The translations under genes and the position numbers were made by a program. From NCBI GenBank assembly GCA_945873955.1, contig CAMCFA010000014.1:1-43951 (forward strand): 43,951 nt of DNA. The letters are read 5' to 3'. The stretch's first letter is position 1. Each line of letters starts with the position of its first letter. This document shows positions 20,818 through 39,994 of the stretch, in pieces. This DNA is from an uncultured Clostridia bacterium (GTDB taxonomy: Bacteria; Bacillota; Clostridia; Oscillospirales; Ruminococcaceae). Under the pieces are notes generated by a model. It had not been told where the DNA came from, ran no database searches, and saw only the letters and a list, made by a program, of their open reading frames with translations.

Positions 20818-21399
20818 TTGTATTATGGTGTATACCAAAAAGTAAGAAATTCCGCATGGCAGTGTCTGATTGACGCGCAGATAACAGAAATGCCGGTACC
20901 GGTAGTTAAGATTGCACGGCACTTCGAGGTGAACATTGTCAAGAACAGCGTCCACAACTGGCTGAAGCCGTCGCAGAGCGGTATCAGCTTCGTGACCGAA
21001 AGCGGTGAATGGGTGATTGTGTATGATGATTCTGATTCTATCGGGCGCAGGCGCTTTACCGTAGCGCATGAGCTGGGGCACATCCTCCTCGGCCACCCGC
21101 TCCGGGAAGACACTCCATACACAAGGACTTTCAGCAAGATCCGCCCGAGGATAGAAAGCGAAGCAGATATGTTTGCCGCGCGTGTGTTATCGCCGGCGTG
21201 CGTGCTCTGGGCGCTTGATATGCACGCGCCCTGGGATATCGCGGAGCTGTGCAAAGTAAGCTATACCGCCGCGCAGGCACGCGCGGACAGAATGAAGATA
21301 CTCTATGACCGGAAGAAGTTTCTGAAATCTCCGCTGGAGCGGCAGGTGTATGACGCGTTCCGCCCGTGGATAGAGGAATATAAGAGCCGTTCTGAATAG
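20818..21399 (+). CDS. ImmA/IrrE-family metallopeptidase
   Basis: This 193-residue zinc metalloprotease has FTVAHELGHILLGH with HExxH at residues 84-88, and ESEADMFAARVLSP about 30 residues later as the third-ligand region. In ICEBs1 and many prophages ImmA cleaves the neighbouring ImmR-type repressor after DNA damage, releasing lytic genes. Here it follows the repressor by 61 bases with its own promoter, consistent with that role. It starts with TTG seven bases after GGGGTG. The C-terminal helix-rich part (ERQVYDAFRPWIEEYK) is usual for the family. Confidence 0.92.
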   Translation: MYYGVYQKVRNSAWQCLIDAQITEMPVPVVKIARHFEVNIVKNSVHNWLKPSQSGISFVTESGEWVIVYDDSDSIGRRRFTVAHELGHILLGHPLREDTPYTRTFSKIRPRIESEADMFAARVLSPACVLWALDMHAPWDIAELCKVSYTAAQARADRMKILYDRKKFLKSPLERQVYDAFRPWIEEYKSRSE

Positions 21400-22510: not shown

Positions 22511-23284
22511 ATGTCGAATTATGAAAAGTTAAAGGCTCTCTACGATGAAATTGATAGCCTTATTCTATCAAGGGTGAAAAGTGATGACCCGAGGTTTGAA
22601 ACATGGCAAACCAAAGTAGAACGTTTATTAAAGAAAGTGTATGGAGAAAGTAGCGAAGAACGCATAAATTTCTTACATACAGTGTTTAGTCCTATAGTAT
22701 ATACATCGTACACCACAGACGTGGATTATATCGAGGCTTGTGCTGATGGGCTCAAATCGACAAAATCAGTTTTATCCGTATACTTAGAGGAAATGGCGGA
22801 TAATTCAGAAGAACATTCGGTACCAGCGAACATTGAAGAAAAAGCTAGCGATTTTTCCAAAGTTTTTATTGTACACGGGCACGATGATGCGTTAAAAGAA
22901 GCGGTTGCGCGCTTGGTTGAGAGACAGAACATCAAGGCGATTATTCTCAATGAGCAAGCAAATGGAGGTAAGACCCTTATTGAGAAGCTAGAGGGTTACA
23001 GCGATGTAGGTGGCGCGATATGCTTATTTACGCCAGATGATGAAGGTAAAGAAAAAGGCGCCTTAGAACTGAGCGCTCGCGCAAGACAAAACGTTGTTTT
23101 TGAAGCAGGGTATTTCATGGGAAAACTCGGACGCGACAAAACCGTTATTCTTTCTCAGGGTGATGTGGAACTCCCTTCAGATATGCAGGGCATCGTCTAT
23201 ACAAATAACGAAGAATGGAGATATAAAACGCTAAAAGAGCTGAAGGCAATGGGATACGCAATTGATTTTGAACAGCTCGGGTAA
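22511..23284 (+). CDS. TIR-like nucleotide-binding domain protein (CAP12/Pycsar-effector TIR type)
   Basis: The C-terminal half of this 257-residue protein has the TIR-like pattern: KVFIVHGHDDALKEAVARLV, then ILNEQANGGKTLIEKLE, then GAICLFTPDDEG, ending with RARQNVVFEAGYFMGKLGR. Such domains act as NAD-degrading or nucleotide-sensing effectors in anti-phage systems. Residues 1-110 are a separate helical domain of unknown type. No nucleotide cyclase gene is visible next to it, so activation would have to be by another signal. The gene is AT-rich relative to its neighbours, which suggests recent acquisition. SD AAGGAGG is well placed. Confidence 0.88.
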   Translation: MSNYEKLKALYDEIDSLILSRVKSDDPRFETWQTKVERLLKKVYGESSEERINFLHTVFSPIVYTSYTTDVDYIEACADGLKSTKSVLSVYLEEMADNSEEHSVPANIEEKASDFSKVFIVHGHDDALKEAVARLVERQNIKAIILNEQANGGKTLIEKLEGYSDVGGAICLFTPDDEGKEKGALELSARARQNVVFEAGYFMGKLGRDKTVILSQGDVELPSDMQGIVYTNNEEWRYKTLKELKAMGYAIDFEQLG

Positions 23285-32859: not shown

Positions 32860-34254
32860 ATGGATTTGGGCTTAAAGGACTGGCTGTTCAGACGTGGGAA
32901 CGCCGGAAATATTCCCGCCGGGATCGCCGGCTGCTACGCCGATATTCAGCGTTGGGAGGACATCTACAACGGCGGCGGAGACTGGCGTTACACACGAAAG
33001 GGCGGTATTCAGGGCGGCACAAGGCGGGTCGCTTCGCTGGGGGCTGCTAAGGCGCTCTGCGGGGAGCTTTCACGGCTGTGCTTCACCGAGGGTACGGCAA
33101 TGTGCTATTCTGACCCGGACACGGAAAAGCTGGTGAAACGCGTGCTGAAAGAAAGCCGTTTTACCGAGCGTTTCCCGGAGTTTCTTGAAAAGGTGTTCGC
33201 TCTGGGCGGCGGCGTTATAAAGGTGTACTACGCCGGGGAACAGAACGGGTCTTCCGGGATACGGGTGGATCTGGTCACAGCAGACTGCTTTGTCCCCACC
33301 GGGTGGAATTCCCGTGAGATCACCGGCGGAGCGTTTGCTTCAATGATAATGTCCGGCGGTAAAAGCTACGTCCTTGCGGAAACGCAGGAGAACGACGGCA
33401 GTGCGCTTGTAATTGAGAACCGCCTGTACCGCGAGGACGGAGCAAAAGCGGACTTGCAGGAGATCCTGCCGGGGCTGAGAGAACAGAGCAGGATAGAGGG
33501 GCTTTCCTCACCGCTGTTTGTTTACCTCAGAGCCGGGGGACTCCGCAGGACGGTAAACTCCGGGGAATGCCCGCTGCTGGGAAGCTCGGTGTTCGCCGGG
33601 GCGGAGGATACCCTCCGGGAGATCGACACTGTGTTCGACAGCCTTGGCAGGGAATTCGTGCTTGGCAAGAAGCGGATAATCGTACCGGCTTACGCAGTGC
33701 GCGGCGAATGGGACAGCGACGGCAACAAGAAGCATTACTTTGACGTCAATGACGAGGTGTTCCAAGCGATGTCAACCTCAGACACTGAGGAACTGAAGAT
33801 CACCGACAACACCGGGGAGCTTCGCGTTACAGAGCATGTTCAGGCGCTGGGAGAGCTGCTGGATCTACTCTGTATGCAGGCGGGTCTGTCCGAGGGGGCG
33901 TTATCCTACAAGGACGGCACGATACGCACCGCGGCGGAGGTAGTCAGCAGAAACAGCCGCACCTACCGCACGCAGGCATTCTATCGCAGCATGATCTCCG
34001 AGGCGCTCAGCCGCATGGTACAGAATATCTGTATTCTTGGAAAAATGGCGGGAGAGCTGCCGGACGGTGCAGCCGAAAGCGCTTCGGCGGTATTTGCGGA
34101 CGGCGCTGCCGAGGACGACGGTACAAGAACTGACAGGGCGGTAAAGCTGTACAGTGCGGGGGTCATCTCACGGGCAAGGGCTTTGTCGCAGATCTACGGA
34201 ATATCGCTTGAGGAGGCTCAGGCAATGGAAAGGACAGATTTTAATGAACAATGA
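32860..34254 (+). CDS. Phage portal protein, first gene of the compact capsid cluster
   Basis: The 464-residue protein resembles the A118/SPP1-like portal or minor capsid group: an N-terminal WRYTRKGGIQGGTRRVASLG, a middle segment EFLEKVFALGGGVIKVYY, and a late region with EGALSYKDGTIRTAAEVVS, all typical of that family. I chose the ATG at 32860 (MDLGLKDWLF) because GGAG lies 9 bases upstream; the frame is open further back but without homology or SD. No TerL precedes it, which is odd for a phage. Its 3' end overlaps the scaffold-like gene by 11 bases. Confidence 0.87.
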   Translation: MDLGLKDWLFRRGNAGNIPAGIAGCYADIQRWEDIYNGGGDWRYTRKGGIQGGTRRVASLGAAKALCGELSRLCFTEGTAMCYSDPDTEKLVKRVLKESRFTERFPEFLEKVFALGGGVIKVYYAGEQNGSSGIRVDLVTADCFVPTGWNSREITGGAFASMIMSGGKSYVLAETQENDGSALVIENRLYREDGAKADLQEILPGLREQSRIEGLSSPLFVYLRAGGLRRTVNSGECPLLGSSVFAGAEDTLREIDTVFDSLGREFVLGKKRIIVPAYAVRGEWDSDGNKKHYFDVNDEVFQAMSTSDTEELKITDNTGELRVTEHVQALGELLDLLCMQAGLSEGALSYKDGTIRTAAEVVSRNSRTYRTQAFYRSMISEALSRMVQNICILGKMAGELPDGAAESASAVFADGAAEDDGTRTDRAVKLYSAGVISRARALSQIYGISLEEAQAMERTDFNEQ

Positions 34255-34648
34255 TGATATGATCCGGCAGGAGAGCCTGCCGGAGTCTGCCGAAGCTGTA
34301 CAGCTGGAAGAAATTGAGCAGGCAGCGGCGGAGGTTACTCCGCAGGAGGAAGCTCCAGCAGCGCAGGACGAGGAGATCAAGGCGCTGCGCGGCGAGCTTA
34401 TGGAGCTTAAGCTGCGTCTGGCTCTGCTCACTGCCGGGGCTGCTCCGGAAAGGCTGGAGGAGGGAATGAAGCTGGCGGCGGGTATCATGGTTTCCGACCA
34501 GATACCACCGGAAAGCGCTGCGGAGGAGGTCCTTCGCGAATACCCGCACATCAAGCTGGCGAAGCGCACAATCCCTCAGTTCTCTGCCGAAAGCAGAGGC
34601 TGCGGCGACGGCTTCGCGGCGATACGCGGCATTTTCGCTAAGAGATGA
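34244..34648 (+). CDS. Scaffold-like protein
   Basis: A 134-residue acidic, helical protein. It starts with MNNDDMIRQESLPESAEAVQ and has a coiled-coil-like middle (EIKALRGELMELKLRLALLT) and a basic tail ending GFAAIRGIFAKR. The place between portal and major capsid, the acidic N-terminus and the basic C-terminus are what phage scaffolding proteins show. It is encoded in the overlap with the portal gene. There is no prohead protease gene nearby. Confidence 0.75.
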   Translation: MNNDDMIRQESLPESAEAVQLEEIEQAAAEVTPQEEAPAAQDEEIKALRGELMELKLRLALLTAGAAPERLEEGMKLAAGIMVSDQIPPESAAEEVLREYPHIKLAKRTIPQFSAESRGCGDGFAAIRGIFAKR

Positions 34649-34654
34649 TCCGCG

Positions 34655-34865
34655 CGTAACGTACAATGAGAGTCCTGCACGACGGAAGGCAGTGGGCTTA
34701 CCATAGGATACAGCCGGGCAGTGCGGACATTCTCACATTATAAAACGGCGGCAAAATGCCGAGGGTGGGACGGCGGGTTTACATATATCGGCAGTCGGCG
34801 AAGCCCCGGGCGGCACGAGCAGCGGTTGTTCACCAGAGAACTAAGGTGCGGCAGCGGCGGGCTTC
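34655..34865 (+). ncRNA. Candidate structured RNA leader of the capsid gene
   Basis: A 263-base gap between scaffold and capsid genes has no ORF but has pairings. AATG-AGA-GTCC-GCAC (34665-34680) pairs with GTGC-GGAC-TCT-CATT (34721-34739), 15 pairs with small bulges. GGCT/AGCC pairs inside it. A 5-bp CGGCA-AAA-TGCCG hairpin is at 34749-34761. It ends before the SD AAGGAGG. It may be a leader, a processing site or a packaged RNA; this is inferred from folding only. Confidence 0.5.
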
Positions 34866-34911
34866 ATAGGACTGTATTACAACAATAATTTCTGTTAAGG
34901 AGGAAAATAAC

Positions 34912-35802
34912 ATGGCAAATACAATTGAATACGCAAAGGTATTCCAGAAGGAACTGGACAAGCAGGTGATCGAGGGATCTACCTCCGGCTGGATGGAGGA
35001 GAACGCTTCGCAGGTCATTTATAACGGCGGCAGCGAGATCAAGCTTCCCAAGATGTCGCTTCAGGGTCTTGGAAGTTACAGCAGGGGCGACGGCTACGTC
35101 AGCGGCGCTGTGACCTACGCTTACGAGACATTCTCTCTGACGCAGGACAGAGGCAGACGTTTCCGAATTGACGCGGTGGACGTTGACGAGAGCGGTTTCG
35201 GACTGGCGGCGGCAAACGTCGCTGCGGAGTTCCAGCGCACAAAGGTGATCCCGGAGATCGACGCTTACCGTTACTCTAAGCTGGCGGAGGCTGCGGGTAT
35301 CCGCGAGACCTACACTCCGGACAAGTCCACCGTGATGTCCTCTCTGCTGGCGCAGCTTGGCGAGGTGCGAGACGTCACCGGCGACGAGGGCGACGTAGTT
35401 ATCGTGATGAGCCGCCCGGTATACGACAAGCTCATGCTTTCCGGTGAGATCTCCTACGCTGTGGAGAGTGCAAATTTCAAGCAGGGCGATCTGGAATTCA
35501 GCGTAAAGACTATCAACGGTGTGCCGGTGATCCCTGTTCCCTCCGCGAGAATGAAGACTGCATACACCTTCAAGACCGACGGCGACGGCGGATTCACCGC
35601 TGCCGATGACGCGAAGGATATTAACTGGCTTATCTGCCCGAAGTCTGCCCCCATTGCGGTTTCCAAGACCGACAATGTGAAGATCATCACTCCAGAGAAT
35701 AACCAGTTTGCGGACGCGTGGGACATTGACTACCGCAAGTATCACGACCTGTTCGTACCCGACAACAAGAAGGCGGTCATCGCCGTTTCTATCGGCGCGT
35801 GA
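34912..35802 (+). CDS. Phage major capsid protein
   Basis: The start ANTIEYAKVFQKELDKQVIE and the next region, with YSRGDGYVSGAVTYAYETFS, match the large family of HK97-fold coat proteins of Firmicutes phages without an N-terminal delta domain. The C-terminal half has FADAWDIDYRKYHDLFVPDN before a final beta strand. The protein has 296 residues and is intact. A strong SD AAGGAGG precedes the ATG, and a stem-loop follows the stop, both consistent with high expression. Confidence 0.92.
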   Translation: MANTIEYAKVFQKELDKQVIEGSTSGWMEENASQVIYNGGSEIKLPKMSLQGLGSYSRGDGYVSGAVTYAYETFSLTQDRGRRFRIDAVDVDESGFGLAAANVAAEFQRTKVIPEIDAYRYSKLAEAAGIRETYTPDKSTVMSSLLAQLGEVRDVTGDEGDVVIVMSRPVYDKLMLSGEISYAVESANFKQGDLEFSVKTINGVPVIPVPSARMKTAYTFKTDGDGGFTAADDAKDINWLICPKSAPIAVSKTDNVKIITPENNQFADAWDIDYRKYHDLFVPDNKKAVIAVSIGA

Positions 35803-35823
35803 GCCGCAGAGTAGATCACAGAG

Positions 35824-35850
35824 GGGCGCAGCAATGCCGCTGCGCCCTTA
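35824..35850 (+). terminator. Hairpin after the capsid gene
   Basis: GGGCGCAGC (35824-35832) pairs with GCTGCGCCC (35839-35847) with a 6-base loop, followed by TTATT. It probably gives partial termination or protects the capsid mRNA. Confidence 0.55.
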
Positions 35851-35870
35851 TTCTGAAAGGAGAATGAAAA

Positions 35871-36263
35871 TTGCTTATTACAGCGGAGGAATACAGCAGC
35901 ATGGGATTCCCGGCGGTGAGCGGCGGCAATCTTGAAAGCTGCATCATGAGGAGCGATTACATAATCGGCGCGCTCACCGAGGGCAGAGCCGCCAAGGCGG
36001 TCGCGGCGGGAGGTCAGCCGGCGCAGTTTGTGAAGCAGGCGGCGGGATTCCAGACCTACATGCTGCTGAAAGAAATGGAAACGATCGAGAAAAGCCAGAA
36101 GTCCGGCTCTGAGAAGGTGGCGCTGGGGGACTACTCATATAGCAGCCAGACCAGCGAGAGCAGCGACGTGCAGACCTCCGACAGCGATACCGCCGGGATC
36201 AACGTGATCCGTCTGCTGCGGGCGGCGGGCTGCCTGTACGCCGGGGTGGAGGTGTCTGAATGA
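35871..36263 (+). CDS. Head-tail connector-like protein
   Basis: Starting at a TTG (AAGGAG eight bases upstream), the 130-residue protein reads LITAEEYSSMGFPAVSGGNL and has helices compatible with gp6/gp15-type head completion proteins. It ends with INVIRLLRAAGCLYAGVEV. The place after the capsid gene fits a connector. An ATG eight bases earlier is in another frame. The stop overlaps the next start as ATGA. Confidence 0.72.
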   Translation: MLITAEEYSSMGFPAVSGGNLESCIMRSDYIIGALTEGRAAKAVAAGGQPAQFVKQAAGFQTYMLLKEMETIEKSQKSGSEKVALGDYSYSSQTSESSDVQTSDSDTAGINVIRLLRAAGCLYAGVEVSE

Positions 36264-36607
36264 GCGCACTGAAACCTATCCCGGCGGAGCTGCTGACGGA
36301 CTGCGCGGTGCTGCGCACTCCCGAGGCGGGCGGGTACACGGACGAAGATCTCATTGACGTGCGGATCGTCAGAACTAACGCGATAACGGACTACACCGCC
36401 GGGCGCACCCGTGACTGCACCGAGCTTGTGATGTATTTCGACTGTGAAAACTCATACCCGCAGGACGTGGAATTTGCCGCAGGACAGACGATAGTTTACT
36501 GCGAAGAAAGCTACGAGATCACTTCGGTGGAGCTGTTCTCCGGGACAGCGCCGCACCATTACAGAATAAAGGCGAGAAAGACAGACGGTACATTCCGCGC
36601 GGAATGA
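36260..36607 (+). CDS. Minor capsid / head-tail adaptor-like protein
   Basis: In this 115-residue protein a beta-rich middle (ITDYTAGRTRDCTELVMYFD) followed by VEFAAGQTIVYCEESYEITS and a histidine-rich HHYRIKARK fits the small adaptor proteins that close phage capsids. Exact family uncertain. It overlaps the preceding stop as ATGA and is followed within 13 bases by a tiny gene. Confidence 0.7.
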   Translation: MSALKPIPAELLTDCAVLRTPEAGGYTDEDLIDVRIVRTNAITDYTAGRTRDCTELVMYFDCENSYPQDVEFAAGQTIVYCEESYEITSVELFSGTAPHHYRIKARKTDGTFRAE

Positions 36608-36620
36608 AAGGAGCGATATC

Positions 36621-36767
36621 ATGAGCAGCAACAATAATACTCCCAAGACCACAGTGAAAACCACCAGCGGCAGGGAGGAGGGCTACCGCCTTGCAAAGCT
36701 GCTGCGGGCGGGAAACCGTGAGCTTGCGCGGCAGCTCAACATCAAGAGTACGCAGAAAACGCGCTGA
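36621..36767 (+). CDS. Very small basic protein, 48 residues
   Basis: This short protein reads SSNNNTPKTTVKTTSGREE and ends ELARQLNIKSTQKTR. It is Lys/Arg/Thr-rich. It has its own SD (AAAGGAG) and a following gene after 17 bases, so it is a real member of the operon. I do not recognise it; a DNA-binding or capsid-cementing peptide are only possibilities. Confidence 0.7.
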   Translation: MSSNNNTPKTTVKTTSGREEGYRLAKLLRAGNRELARQLNIKSTQKTR

Positions 36768-36784
36768 ATCGACAGGAGGCAGAC

Positions 36785-37144
36785 ATGACGATATGGATAA
36801 ACGATACTGAATTCAGCAAGGTGACTGAGCTTTCTGCGCTGCGTGAGACTCGCAGAACGGATATCCGCTACAACACGCAGGGGGATATGCTCATAGACCT
36901 TGTGAACAGAAAATACCGGCTGACAGTCCGGTTCGGGCTGCTGACGGAAAGAGAGCTAAAACAGCTCCGCGAGCTGACGCAGGAGATCTTCGTGACAGTG
37001 AGATTCCCGGCGCCGGAGGGGGACTTTGACACCGGGCTGGTGACCGGGGAATTCCACATAGCCGACGAGCCTGCCCCGACAGTGACCGAGGTGAACGGAG
37101 TCACCCTGTACGGCGGCGTGGAGCTCACCATGCGGCAGAAGTGA
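36785..37144 (+). CDS. Small tail-like protein, 119 residues
   Basis: The protein starts TIWINDTEFSKVTELSALRE and ends VTEVNGVTLYGGVELTMRQK. It is beta-rich with a middle segment RLTVRFGLLTERELKQLREL, compatible with a small distal tail or tail-completion component of Clostridia phages. SD CAGGAGGC precedes it. No tail tube or tape measure gene follows, unlike in full siphophages. Confidence 0.6.
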   Translation: MTIWINDTEFSKVTELSALRETRRTDIRYNTQGDMLIDLVNRKYRLTVRFGLLTERELKQLRELTQEIFVTVRFPAPEGDFDTGLVTGEFHIADEPAPTVTEVNGVTLYGGVELTMRQK

Positions 37145-37155
37145 GGTGAGATATC

Positions 37156-38643
37156 ATGGTTGAGGTATCAGACAGCTTCAAGGAGCTGGCGCAAAAGAAC
37201 GGCAGAAACGTCTGGTGCAAAATCGTTGCGGACGGGGTAGAGTTCCTTGACGACAGGATAATCGACATGGATTTCGACGATATTGTCCACCCGGACTGGT
37301 TTACGGTGGGGACTACCTGTGCGAATCGTCTGCATTTCACTGTCAATTATACCGGGGAGCTTTCTCCCGGTGCAGAGGTCAGGGCCTACATCAGCTTTGA
37401 CGGGCAGGAATGGTGTCCGCTGGGAGTATTCTTTATTGCCCGGAGGTACGTCCGGGGAAGCTATGTCAGCGTCACTGCATACGACATGATGTACAGCCTT
37501 GACGTGGACTATCACTACGACGGGGAGCTTCCGGTGACCGCTGACGTACTTATGCAGGCGGTCTGCGATAAGGTCGGGCTGGAGTGCGCCGATCCGGGCT
37601 ATCACTATAAGATAGAGTCAGTGCCGGAGGGCTGCACCGCCAGGGATATAATCGGCTATATCGCGGGCATTAACCGCGCCTGCGCGAAGATAGACCGTCA
37701 AGGCAGGCTGCACCTAAAATCCCATATAATAATCGATTTTAACCTGCTGGACAGAAACTGCTGGGAGGTCCAGCGAAACATGGGCAGCTCTGTCATCACC
37801 AGCATAAAGGTCAATACCGGGGACGGAGAGATCACCGCTGGCAGCGGCGCGGAGATATCTTCGCTGGAGATGTACAACCCGTTCATGACACAGGCTATCG
37901 CGGATAACATGTATTCTATGTTCAAGCCGTTTTCGTTTTACGGAGCGGAGCTTGAAATGCAGGGAATGCCGTTTCTGGAAGCAGGTGACAGGGTAAATTT
38001 CCTTGACGGCAAGCTGCTGTATCAGTTGGTCATAAGCGAGATAGAATACAGCTACAACGGCGGGCTGACGGCGGTGCTTTATTCAAGGAACCGTGTGAAC
38101 GACGAGGAGTCCGGCGACCTTGAAAAGCTGCTGGAGCAGCTTGTACACACTAAGGAAGCAGTGTACTACAAACGCGAGAATCCCAGTCAGATCACGCTGA
38201 GAAGCGAACCGCAGATAATCGCGGATTTTGAGTTCGAGTGCGAGGCGGACTGCTTCGCGCAGCTTGACGTGAATTTCACTATCAAGCAGAGCACCGCGGA
38301 CTTTTTCATTGCCACGGTCAATGTCAACGGCACTGATGTTCCCAGAAAGAGCGTCCAGACGCTCACCGGAGCGGACTATGAGCTGCTGCATTTGTATCAT
38401 CTGGCGGAAAAGCTCCCGGCGGGGAAGAACCGAATTTATGTTACGGCGCAGACCAAGACCGGCGAGGCATATATCGCCGCCGGGGATATGCTGGCTACTG
38501 TTGTAGGCCACGGGCTTTACGGCAATGTCGGAAGTCAGCGGGACAAGGAGTCGCTTTACGAGAAGGCAGCGCGCTGGCAGCTGGTTCCGGCGAAGCTTAT
38601 ACCTAAGGAGATAACGACAGAAATAAACAAGGAGGTCACATAA
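37156..38643 (+). CDS. Tail-hub (gp27-like) baseplate protein
   Basis: In this 495-residue protein the first 120 residues form a beta-rich part (DWFTVGTTCANRLHFTVNYT). The centre shows the hub-type helix and strand series with VSVTAYDMMYSLDVDYHY and DRVNFLDGKLLYQLVISEIE, as in phage tail hubs and the front part of tail endopeptidases. The C-terminal 150 residues are a separate beta domain with no peptidase motif. It appears to be the central tail-tip protein. The stop overlaps the next start by one base. Confidence 0.77.
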   Translation: MVEVSDSFKELAQKNGRNVWCKIVADGVEFLDDRIIDMDFDDIVHPDWFTVGTTCANRLHFTVNYTGELSPGAEVRAYISFDGQEWCPLGVFFIARRYVRGSYVSVTAYDMMYSLDVDYHYDGELPVTADVLMQAVCDKVGLECADPGYHYKIESVPEGCTARDIIGYIAGINRACAKIDRQGRLHLKSHIIIDFNLLDRNCWEVQRNMGSSVITSIKVNTGDGEITAGSGAEISSLEMYNPFMTQAIADNMYSMFKPFSFYGAELEMQGMPFLEAGDRVNFLDGKLLYQLVISEIEYSYNGGLTAVLYSRNRVNDEESGDLEKLLEQLVHTKEAVYYKRENPSQITLRSEPQIIADFEFECEADCFAQLDVNFTIKQSTADFFIATVNVNGTDVPRKSVQTLTGADYELLHLYHLAEKLPAGKNRIYVTAQTKTGEAYIAAGDMLATVVGHGLYGNVGSQRDKESLYEKAARWQLVPAKLIPKEITTEINKEVT

Positions 38644-39959
38644 TGAAGGGAAAAGCAACATTCACCCTGACCGAAGCCAAAACCGGAAGAATGGTGAAGC
38701 AGTTCACCGAGCACAACATGATCACCGACGCGGTAAAAAGGATCCTTGACCCGCCGGATCATACCGTGCTGTACAATTTCGACTACTGCGCTTCCCTGAA
38801 GAAGATGATGCCGATAAGCCAGACGCTGTTCGGCGGGATAATTCTTCTTGGCAACAACATAGAGGAAAGCGCGGGCAACGTAATGCTCACAAAGGACTGT
38901 ATCCCTATTGCGACCGCGGGGGGAGCGTATTCCGGCACAAATGTCATGAGGGGTTCGCTTAACGAAAACGAAAGCTATCAGACGGCAAACGGCTACCATT
39001 TCACATGGGATTTCGCAACTGACAAGGCTAACGGCACGATAAAGTGCGCGGCGCTCACCAGCAGGATATTCGGCAACACGGGCTTCGCAAACGAGGACTC
39101 CAGCGGCTGCCTTACTTTGAACCCGGAAAACATTTCAACAATTTCCACCACGACGGTGAAATATTTCAATGCCGAGGGGCAGTATGTCGGCACGTTTGAA
39201 AAGTATGTACACACCTATTTCAAGAGAATAAGCGGCAGCAAGAATCTGGAGTTCGTAAGGCTGAAAAGCCTTGACCCGACCGCTGTCGGCGTCAATGATG
39301 TGGTGGATATTTCATCATACGCGCAGCCGTATTTCAGCACAGAGGTCGAAATACCGATAAACTACGATCTGTATAACAGGTGGTTCTTAAATGTTTCGAC
39401 AAAGGTGCTGTATTTCTTCACGGACGCTTACTCCGACAATGGTCAGTACAAGGTGGGCTACGCCGGGATAAGCATGACGGACTTTTCCGTAGCCGACACC
39501 GGGACATGGGTGCTGTCGAAAACCTATTCGTCGCAGCGTGCTACCGCGATCTACGACGGCAAGCTCTTTGTGGCGGGAGATGAGAAGGTGGAAATATTCT
39601 CCTCCTCCGGAGAACTGCTGCGCAGTTACTCGCGCTCTCTGTCGCCGGCATGCTATTTCTATACGGTCAACGGAGTTTTGTATTTCACCGACGGCAGCAA
39701 GGTGATGATGGCGTATTACAACGGGGAATTATACACGTTCAATAATCCCAACGCTTACAGCTATATGTACTCAGCGGACATAGAGGCGCCCTATTTTGCT
39801 TCTGCATACGTCAATATTTATTCCAACCTCAGCGGAGTAAGCCAGAATCCTTATCTGGGACTTGCGTCCAACTTCCTTGCGACGATAAATAACCTCAGCG
39901 AGCCGCTAGAAAAGACCAACGAGCATACGCTGAAGATCACCTATGACATCACCAACTAA
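38643..39959 (+). CDS. Fibre-like or receptor-binding protein
   Basis: The N-terminus (KGKATFTLTEAKTGRMVKQF, then TEHNMITDAV) is the common attachment part of Clostridia phage fibre proteins. The remainder is beta-rich with repeated blades such as TAIYDGKLFVAGDEKVEIFS and YTVNGVLYFTDGSKVMMAYY, which look like a propeller-type receptor binder. The protein has 438 residues and is intact. It ends in a strong terminator. It probably decorates a particle and binds a cell surface; ligand unknown. Confidence 0.77.
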   Translation: MKGKATFTLTEAKTGRMVKQFTEHNMITDAVKRILDPPDHTVLYNFDYCASLKKMMPISQTLFGGIILLGNNIEESAGNVMLTKDCIPIATAGGAYSGTNVMRGSLNENESYQTANGYHFTWDFATDKANGTIKCAALTSRIFGNTGFANEDSSGCLTLNPENISTISTTTVKYFNAEGQYVGTFEKYVHTYFKRISGSKNLEFVRLKSLDPTAVGVNDVVDISSYAQPYFSTEVEIPINYDLYNRWFLNVSTKVLYFFTDAYSDNGQYKVGYAGISMTDFSVADTGTWVLSKTYSSQRATAIYDGKLFVAGDEKVEIFSSSGELLRSYSRSLSPACYFYTVNGVLYFTDGSKVMMAYYNGELYTFNNPNAYSYMYSADIEAPYFASAYVNIYSNLSGVSQNPYLGLASNFLATINNLSEPLEKTNEHTLKITYDITN

Positions 39960-39965
39960 AGTTTC

Positions 39966-39994
39966 AGCCCCCGAATCTTAATCGGGGGCTGTTG
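39966..39994 (+). terminator. Terminator after the capsid cluster
   Basis: AGCCCCCGA (39966-39974) pairs with TCGGGGGCT (39982-39990), followed by GTTGTTAT. It also lies at the 3' end of the convergent small gene. Confidence 0.8.

Follow-up and report, generated by a model that had tools for sequence, protein, structure and literature searches.

A putative GTA-like element in a clostridial genus, with particle genes in a compact operon and a terminase pair at a separate locus

To our knowledge, few GTA genes are known outside the Alphaproteobacteria. Kogay et al. (2022, PMC9662315) define GTAs by six features: particle proteins derived from tailed phages; full endogenisation, often at several loci; mostly vertical inheritance and co-diversification; encapsidation of mostly random host DNA; a genome of their own that is not fully packageable; and delivery of the DNA to other cells. 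For FpGTA of Faecalibacterium, Borodovich et al. (Nat Commun 2026, PMC12946183) describe particles of about 40 nm with no identifiable tail, about 9 kb of DNA and genes at two loci; the particles, the DNA length and the proteins were shown experimentally, and FpGTA was present in all twelve Faecalibacterium genomes that its authors examined. The same study reports that GTA-like DNA packaging is widespread among gut Ruminococcaceae and Oscillospiraceae and assigns genes to it in Faecalibacterium (2026, PMC12946183); this was the only paper on GTA genes in these families that our literature search found, preprints and most subscription journals lying outside its scope.

The stretch of DNA analysed here, 43,951 nucleotides long and called the window below, contains a compact phage-like operon. 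An earlier note had described nine open reading frames at 32860..39959; all nine were found there, intact, closely packed and in the order described, and the roles proposed for them are backed by family matches for the portal, the capsid, both connectors and the hub, and weakly for the scaffold (Table 1). The scaffold-like gene keeps its position between portal and capsid across the compared loci. The 48-residue protein occupies the spot of the tail tube and tape measure in related clusters and was recognised in 18 of the 37 element loci when these were searched with a profile built for it; the fibre, sought in the same 37 loci with its own profile, went undetected in part of the genus. The earlier note had also listed terminase, tail tube, tape measure, lysis and integrase genes as missing. 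None of them occurs among the nine genes, but a terminase is encoded elsewhere in the genome, as described below. Contiguous temperate-phage modules (packaging, tail, lysis, replication, integration) were found neither among the nine genes nor in 11 loci read by eye, and the element does not have the feature set that defines a complete temperate phage. A defence function was considered and dropped, as a PADLOC search of the patatin, the 48-residue protein, the hub and the fibre gave no match.

Table 1. Features of the operon in the window, with the matches on which each assignment is based
Feature	Coordinates	Strand	Evidence
Portal, 464 aa, A118/SPP1 type	32860..34254	+	phrog_533 E 7.3e-98; PF05133 2.1e-12; TIGR01542 1.3e-69 (under that model's cut-off)
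Scaffold-like protein, 134 aa	34244..34648	+	phrog_2303, weak, E 2.7e-4 only
Major capsid protein, 296 aa	34912..35802	+	phrog_422 E 2.4e-102
Head-tail connector A	35871..36263	+	phrog_541 E 1.3e-11
Head-tail connector B	36260..36607	+	phrog_793 E 7e-4; PF10665 25.5 bits (cut-off 25)
Basic 48-residue protein	36621..36767	+	no family match
Distal-tail (Dit)-like ring protein, 119 aa	36785..37144	+	phrog_1194, family without assigned function
Tail hub (gp27/gp44-like) with C-terminal jelly-roll-like domain	37156..38643	+	phrog_6616; model; Foldseek
Fibre-like protein, 438 aa	38643..39959	+	phrog_19291, family without assigned function
Intrinsic terminator-like hairpin 3' of the last gene	39965..39991	+	10 pairs, 8 G-C, T-rich tail; consensus match only

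The portal is widespread in the genus. A profile of 23 portals matched 37 of 43 same-genus genomes at E below 1e-230, with stop-free frames in all 37, and a portal match was present in 26 of the 27 genomes with at least 90% completeness and at most 5% contamination; among those compared, the genus portals are 58-86% identical to that of the window. An order-level sample gave portal matches in 52 of 395 genomes, with the strength of E below 1e-230 confined to the genus. The next-best portals (E 5e-152 to 2e-162) come from five genomes of g28, a sister genus in the same family that is represented by at least 12 genomes in this sample. We rely on portal counts because the capsid search, which matched 36 of 61 relatives, mixes in prophage-type capsids. 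The genus records are Oscillospiraceae, Ruminococcaceae or Clostridia MAGs, and several among the best 80 of 96 relatives are labelled as rabbit or deer gut.

The surroundings of the element are also largely shared. Taking as criterion that phoH lies no more than 10 kb from either the portal or the capsid gene, or that an RpiR-type gene lies no more than 6 kb away, a common neighbourhood was seen in 30 of the 37 element loci fetched (phoH in 22, the RpiR-type gene in 19). Beyond these 30, G065 has a YqfD-like neighbour, and six loci, some on short contigs, lie outside the shared neighbourhood (G003, G016, G021, G026, G035 and G061). In G026 the portal and scaffold are on a separate contig from which the capsid is absent, and in G061 the 9.5 kb read show no capsid gene after the portal-scaffold pair. 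The surroundings of the element were inspected for integrases by eye: recombinase-like ORFs adjoin the pair in G061, and recombinase- or relaxase-like ORFs lie close by in the viral-contig relatives L153 and L154. The SRP RNA/dnaX flank described earlier is present in the window but is atypical, as most genus loci adjoin an RpiR-type regulator and/or phoH-ybeY-dgk. The window genome, G004 and G012 have the phoH block in reverse orientation, with the patatin gene in between.

A separate prophage, cut by the contig start, is present in the same window at about 23-24423; it has terminase subunits, a portal, replication genes and an integrase of its own and ends about 8 kb upstream of the operon. 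Phage satellites of the PICI-like kind are mobile between strains and dependent on a helper's motor. The operon could be such a satellite, or a partial element, served by the motor of a helper phage such as this prophage, and prophage-like loci with related capsid genes do occur in several genus members. The portal and TerL of the window prophage, however, show no significant similarity to those of the element, the neighbourhood shared by 30 of 37 loci and the host-like phylogeny misfit a mobile element, and the lineage possesses a co-inherited terminase of its own. The helper-driven satellite, one of the options of the earlier note, is thus unsupported, and we regard it as very improbable.

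The terminase was recognised by a genome-wide search. With a profile of eight portal-adjacent TerLs, a high-scoring copy at another locus was found in 36 of the 43 genus genomes, and the notion of a terminase-less particle was rejected on the strength of this dedicated TerL. Thirty-four copies are whole (E below 1e-185) and those of G004 and G033 are split across contig ends; other TerL copies, prophage ones among them, score 1e-143 or weaker. All 34 copies checked have the six ATPase and nuclease motifs that we take to be catalytic. A TerS-like ORF without a family match stands ahead of TerL in each of 20 loci examined and is homologous to the small ORFs of eight clusters outside the genus. 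At seven TerL loci listed gene by gene, the remaining neighbours are host-like and none matches the element profiles. The TerL and portal loci share one contig in G034, where they are 68.5 kb apart, and in the window genome TerL is on its own 5.3-kb contig. In a TerL tree with 16 genus, 8 portal-adjacent and 10 prophage-type rows, the genus and portal-adjacent copies group together (99/99) with the prophage-type copies outside, and the genus alone is supported at 89/94. Judged from these sequences, the operon is terminase-less only locally, with a dedicated TerS-like/TerL pair of the same phage lineage elsewhere in the genome. Where a compact phage-like operon seems to lack a terminase, the motor gene may simply have moved.

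Structural genes and TerL tend to occur together. Across the 43 genomes, 35 have both, 4 have structural genes only (G002, G016, G023 and G024), 1 has TerL only (G008) and 3 have neither (G014, G030 and G032), giving a Fisher p of 0.010 in a test that takes no account of relatedness or assembly gaps. The portal stood for the structural genes in this scoring, G028 was counted through a capsid fragment, and G023, whose portal is broken into three pieces, was scored as present. The portal is present and this TerL was not found in G002 (97% complete), G016 (92%) and G024 (83%); in G008 (73%) TerL is present and the portal was not found. In G014, which is 98% complete, the cluster is deleted and this TerL is absent too; a search of its site by RpiR with the element proteins of three relatives recovered just a 33-codon Dit-like relic, 79-82% identical to two relatives. 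No element gene was found on the RpiR side in G030. Contig ends cut off the insertion site in G032 and the phoH side of the site in G014.

Protein distances of the element follow those of the host protein dnaX, for which the N-terminal 367 aa of the query were used. Mantel correlations with dnaX were 0.886 for the portal (33 genomes), 0.819 for the capsid (30 genomes), 0.838 for TerL (29 genomes) and 0.690 for the hub (29 genomes), and weaker than for portal, capsid and TerL in the case of the Dit-like (0.524) and TerS-like (0.551) proteins (29 genomes each). The host control phoH gave 0.899 (27 genomes), and a prophage capsid control gave 0.144 (6 genomes, p 0.24); all other p values were 0.0005, the lowest that 1,999 permutations allow. 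Several clades match between the portal tree and the TerL tree. We estimated dN/dS by the Nei-Gojobori method with our own script in the 14 pairs whose portals are most alike (at least 92% identity), the genes varying among pairs. In these closest pairs the values were 0.041-0.135 for the portal (14 pairs), 0.012-0.125 for the capsid (the 12 pairs having it), 0.04-0.09 for TerL, 0.10-0.22 for the hub, 0.16-0.34 for the fibre, 0.12-0.42 for the scaffold and 0.08-0.56 for the short 48-residue protein, as compared with 0.06-0.23 for dnaX and 0.02-0.08 for phoH. The check on dN/dS that had been proposed earlier gives low values, near those of host genes, in the closest pairs. Together, the sequence comparisons indicate that the element is inherited mainly vertically and is under purifying selection.

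These data bear on whether the operon could be a decaying prophage remnant, raised earlier as a prophage that had recently lost genes. Loss does occur in the genus, as the portal pieces of G023 and the deletion with its relic in G014 illustrate, and the hub match of G022 crosses a stop; the patchy detection of the fibre points the same way. Against decay stand the 37 genomes whose portal frame is uninterrupted and the dN/dS values of the closest pairs, which lie near those of host genes. We find this option unsupported and, in our estimation, extremely improbable.

The lack of a tail tube and tape measure noticed in the window holds genus-wide within the reach of our profiles. With 6 and 7 sequences behind them, these could miss a tail tube that has diverged strongly; the tail tube profile matched 3 of 43 genus genomes (E 1e-32 to 1e-37) and the tape measure profile 1 of 43, the latter match being partial (74 of 243 positions). 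The tail tube of G012 lies on contig C8 alongside a second portal, TerL and holin, and so probably belongs to another prophage. Of the tail, the operon does encode a tip. The model of the Dit-like protein has the form of a tube/Dit-type ring (best Foldseek E 2.9e-3). The hub model (pLDDT 83) matches 3cdd (E 6e-16) and the pyocin R2 hub 6u5h (5e-13) in Foldseek, and its C-terminal domain matches C1q-like 4qql (8e-5); the protein is predicted to be a gp27/gp44-like hub with a jelly-roll-like domain after it. From the models, ring, hub and fibre would together form a stubby tail. For lysis, the one family sought was the PF05105 holin; it occurs in 14 of 43 genomes, and no lysis gene shared by the whole genus was found.

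Related clusters outside the genus show what a more complete arrangement looks like. In eight of them (L105, L106, L109, L110, L113, L114, L115 and L117), a small ORF and TerL lie upstream of a homologous portal, up to about 0.9 kb away; L113 and L115 are considered broken or cut because other ORFs come after the portal. L105, L106, L109, L110, L114 and L117 are of the same lineage as the element, have the same order of portal, capsid, connectors, Dit-like protein, hub and fibre and, like the element, are surrounded by host-like genes as judged by eye. Whereas the TerS-like gene and TerL stand just upstream of the portal in these clusters of other Clostridia, they are split off in the window genus. 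In L105, L106, L109, L110 and L114, genes for a tail tube and a short tape measure follow connector B and precede the Dit-like gene; for L105 the family matches are to minor head proteins, to phrog_820 (major tail protein) and, weakly, to a tape measure. L117 is without tail tube and tape measure, with one 127-aa ORF at that spot and a holin gene after the fibre. A longer phage in relatives, for which the earlier note had suggested looking, was thus found in part: in none of the same-genus loci read is the operon joined by terminase and tape measure, but other genera do have such clusters, at other locations. In the portal tree, which covers 18 of the 37 genus rows, the genus (100/100) stands beside eight rows of clusters with tails or their kind (joint support 89/82). 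As L117 lies outside both portal groups and is tailless too, tail loss may have happened twice, a direction of change that we infer. A different compact cluster, near an acetate-kinase-like gene, is held by L423 and L424, two genomes of genus g49 in family f10 of the same order; its TerL, portal and connector were recognised by profile, and its capsid-like and hub-like ORFs by eye.

The explanation that we favour, with a probability of about 0.7, is a host-owned GTA-like element with its parts at two or more chromosomal loci. The domesticated particle envisaged in the earlier note gains support here from vertical inheritance, purifying selection and the genus-wide shared neighbourhood. Weighing against the GTA-like reading are the four genomes in which portal or TerL was found without the other, the stop crossed by the hub match of G022, the failure to find a genus-wide lysis gene, and the recombinase- or relaxase-like ORFs near the element in G061, L153 and L154. 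By sequence, the window operon encodes the head, neck and tail tip, and the unlinked, co-inherited TerS-like/TerL pair encodes the packaging motor. Scaffold, capsid and portal would assemble a small procapsid, onto whose portal the unlinked TerL would dock to fill it with host DNA. The connectors would then close the filled head, the Dit-like ring and hub would be seated on the neck itself to make a stubby, fibre-bearing tail, and particles would exit by lysis and deliver their DNA to kin.

A domesticated particle could also have a use other than gene transfer. PBSX of Bacillus subtilis is a killer particle that takes up host DNA and does not deliver it, and the element could be a killer of this type or a protein container or delivery device. 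The C1q-like fold at the end of the hub, with a fast-evolving fibre next to it, would suit such a use, and because tail tube and tape measure were not found, DNA injection is not assured; for FpGTA, too, its authors leave a PBSX-like option open (PMC12946183). A DNA-free container, however, would not need a motor with all the sought motifs under purifying selection, and the lack of a detectable fibre in part of the genus is odd for a targeted killer. We consider a use other than gene transfer unlikely.

If the GTA-like element is what we propose, it may further represent a distinct GTA lineage of Oscillospiraceae-type Clostridia that displays successive stages of domestication, a proposal that to us is evenly balanced. 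Contiguous clusters, mostly short-tailed, in other genera would come first; the genus would next have lost its tail tube and tape measure and moved the terminase to a locus of its own; and in one or two species portal-scaffold and capsid genes would then have parted. Were this so, particle and motor may be under separate host control. The element adds a genus-wide gene set, with relatives that would stand at several stages of domestication.

Of the six features that define GTAs, three can be tested by sequence and are seen in the element: its particle proteins derive from tailed phages; it is endogenised over several loci, with the operon beside host genes and the TerS-like/TerL pair at another locus; and it is inherited mostly vertically, with Mantel r of 0.82-0.89 for portal, capsid and TerL. 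The other three need particles, and membership is limited to 'GTA-like': as far as sequence can tell, the element would work in the manner of a GTA. Among phages, Listeria phage A118 has a portal of the same family, to which that of the element is 30% identical, but the A118 group consists of full phages of about 40 kb. Among GTAs, RcGTA and other alphaproteobacterial type I GTAs are like the element in being phage-derived, vertically inherited, spread over several loci and co-diversified with their hosts (PMC9662315). RcGTA has a 49-nm tail (PMC9662315), whereas tail tube and tape measure were not found for the element. By its features, FpGTA is the closest published system. In FpGTA, TerS and TerL are within the head operon and the second locus holds baseplate, fibre, receptor-binding and lysis genes; in the element, hub and fibre stay together with the head genes, the TerS-like gene and TerL are split off, and no lysis genes were found. 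The two are alike in having a compact portal-scaffold-capsid operon without replication genes, a second locus, no identifiable tail and a home in gut Clostridia.

The hub gene becomes stepwise shorter across the genus (492-508, 448-470 and 341-351 aa), and the fibre gene is undetected where hubs are shorter; in one genome, G022, a stop lies within the hub match. Scaffold-capsid gaps like that in the window are also present in many relatives, and an Rfam search of the window returned no match at this gap.

Portal and scaffold are found apart from the capsid genes in two genomes. In a third, the relic of the Dit-like gene is the scar left by deletion of the element.

The same two genes adjoin the TerS-like/TerL pair, the dedicated terminase of the element, at three loci. 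Its neighbours vary at other loci, and the motor locus therefore seems less fixed in position than the structural operon.

The window also carries a separate prophage, which encodes an integrase, replication genes, a minor head protein, a portal and terminase subunits.

Coordinates of the features discussed
Feature	Location	Remark
Hub and fibre	window 37156-39959	
Stretch without assigned gene	window 34649-34911	263 bases, between scaffold and capsid
Portal and scaffold	L425:9593-11315	G061
Recombinase-like ORFs	L425:7633-9030	G061; by eye
Portal and scaffold	L432:2967-4779	G026
Dit-like relic joined to stretch upstream of it	L471:10557-10916	G014
TerS-like/TerL pair	L324:11603-14102	
TerS-like/TerL pair	L336:10776-13260	
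TerS-like/TerL pair	L333:1884-4185	
Prophage distinct from element	window 23-24423	cut by contig start
CapP/RmrA-like gene	window 20818-21399	adjoins prophage integrase
PDC-S35 candidate defence gene	window 22511-23284	TIR-type matches; adjoins prophage integrase
Second compact TerL-portal cluster	L423:5844-13502	another family of the order
Second compact TerL-portal cluster	L424:5496-13161	another family of the order

Among the viral-contig relatives, two loci (L153 and L154) have ORFs within or adjoining the cluster that by eye are recombinase- or relaxase-like, and these look as if they were mobile-element insertions. Outside the genus, a second compact TerL-portal cluster occurs in two genomes, its capsid and hub called only by eye, in similar host surroundings that include an acetate-kinase-like gene.
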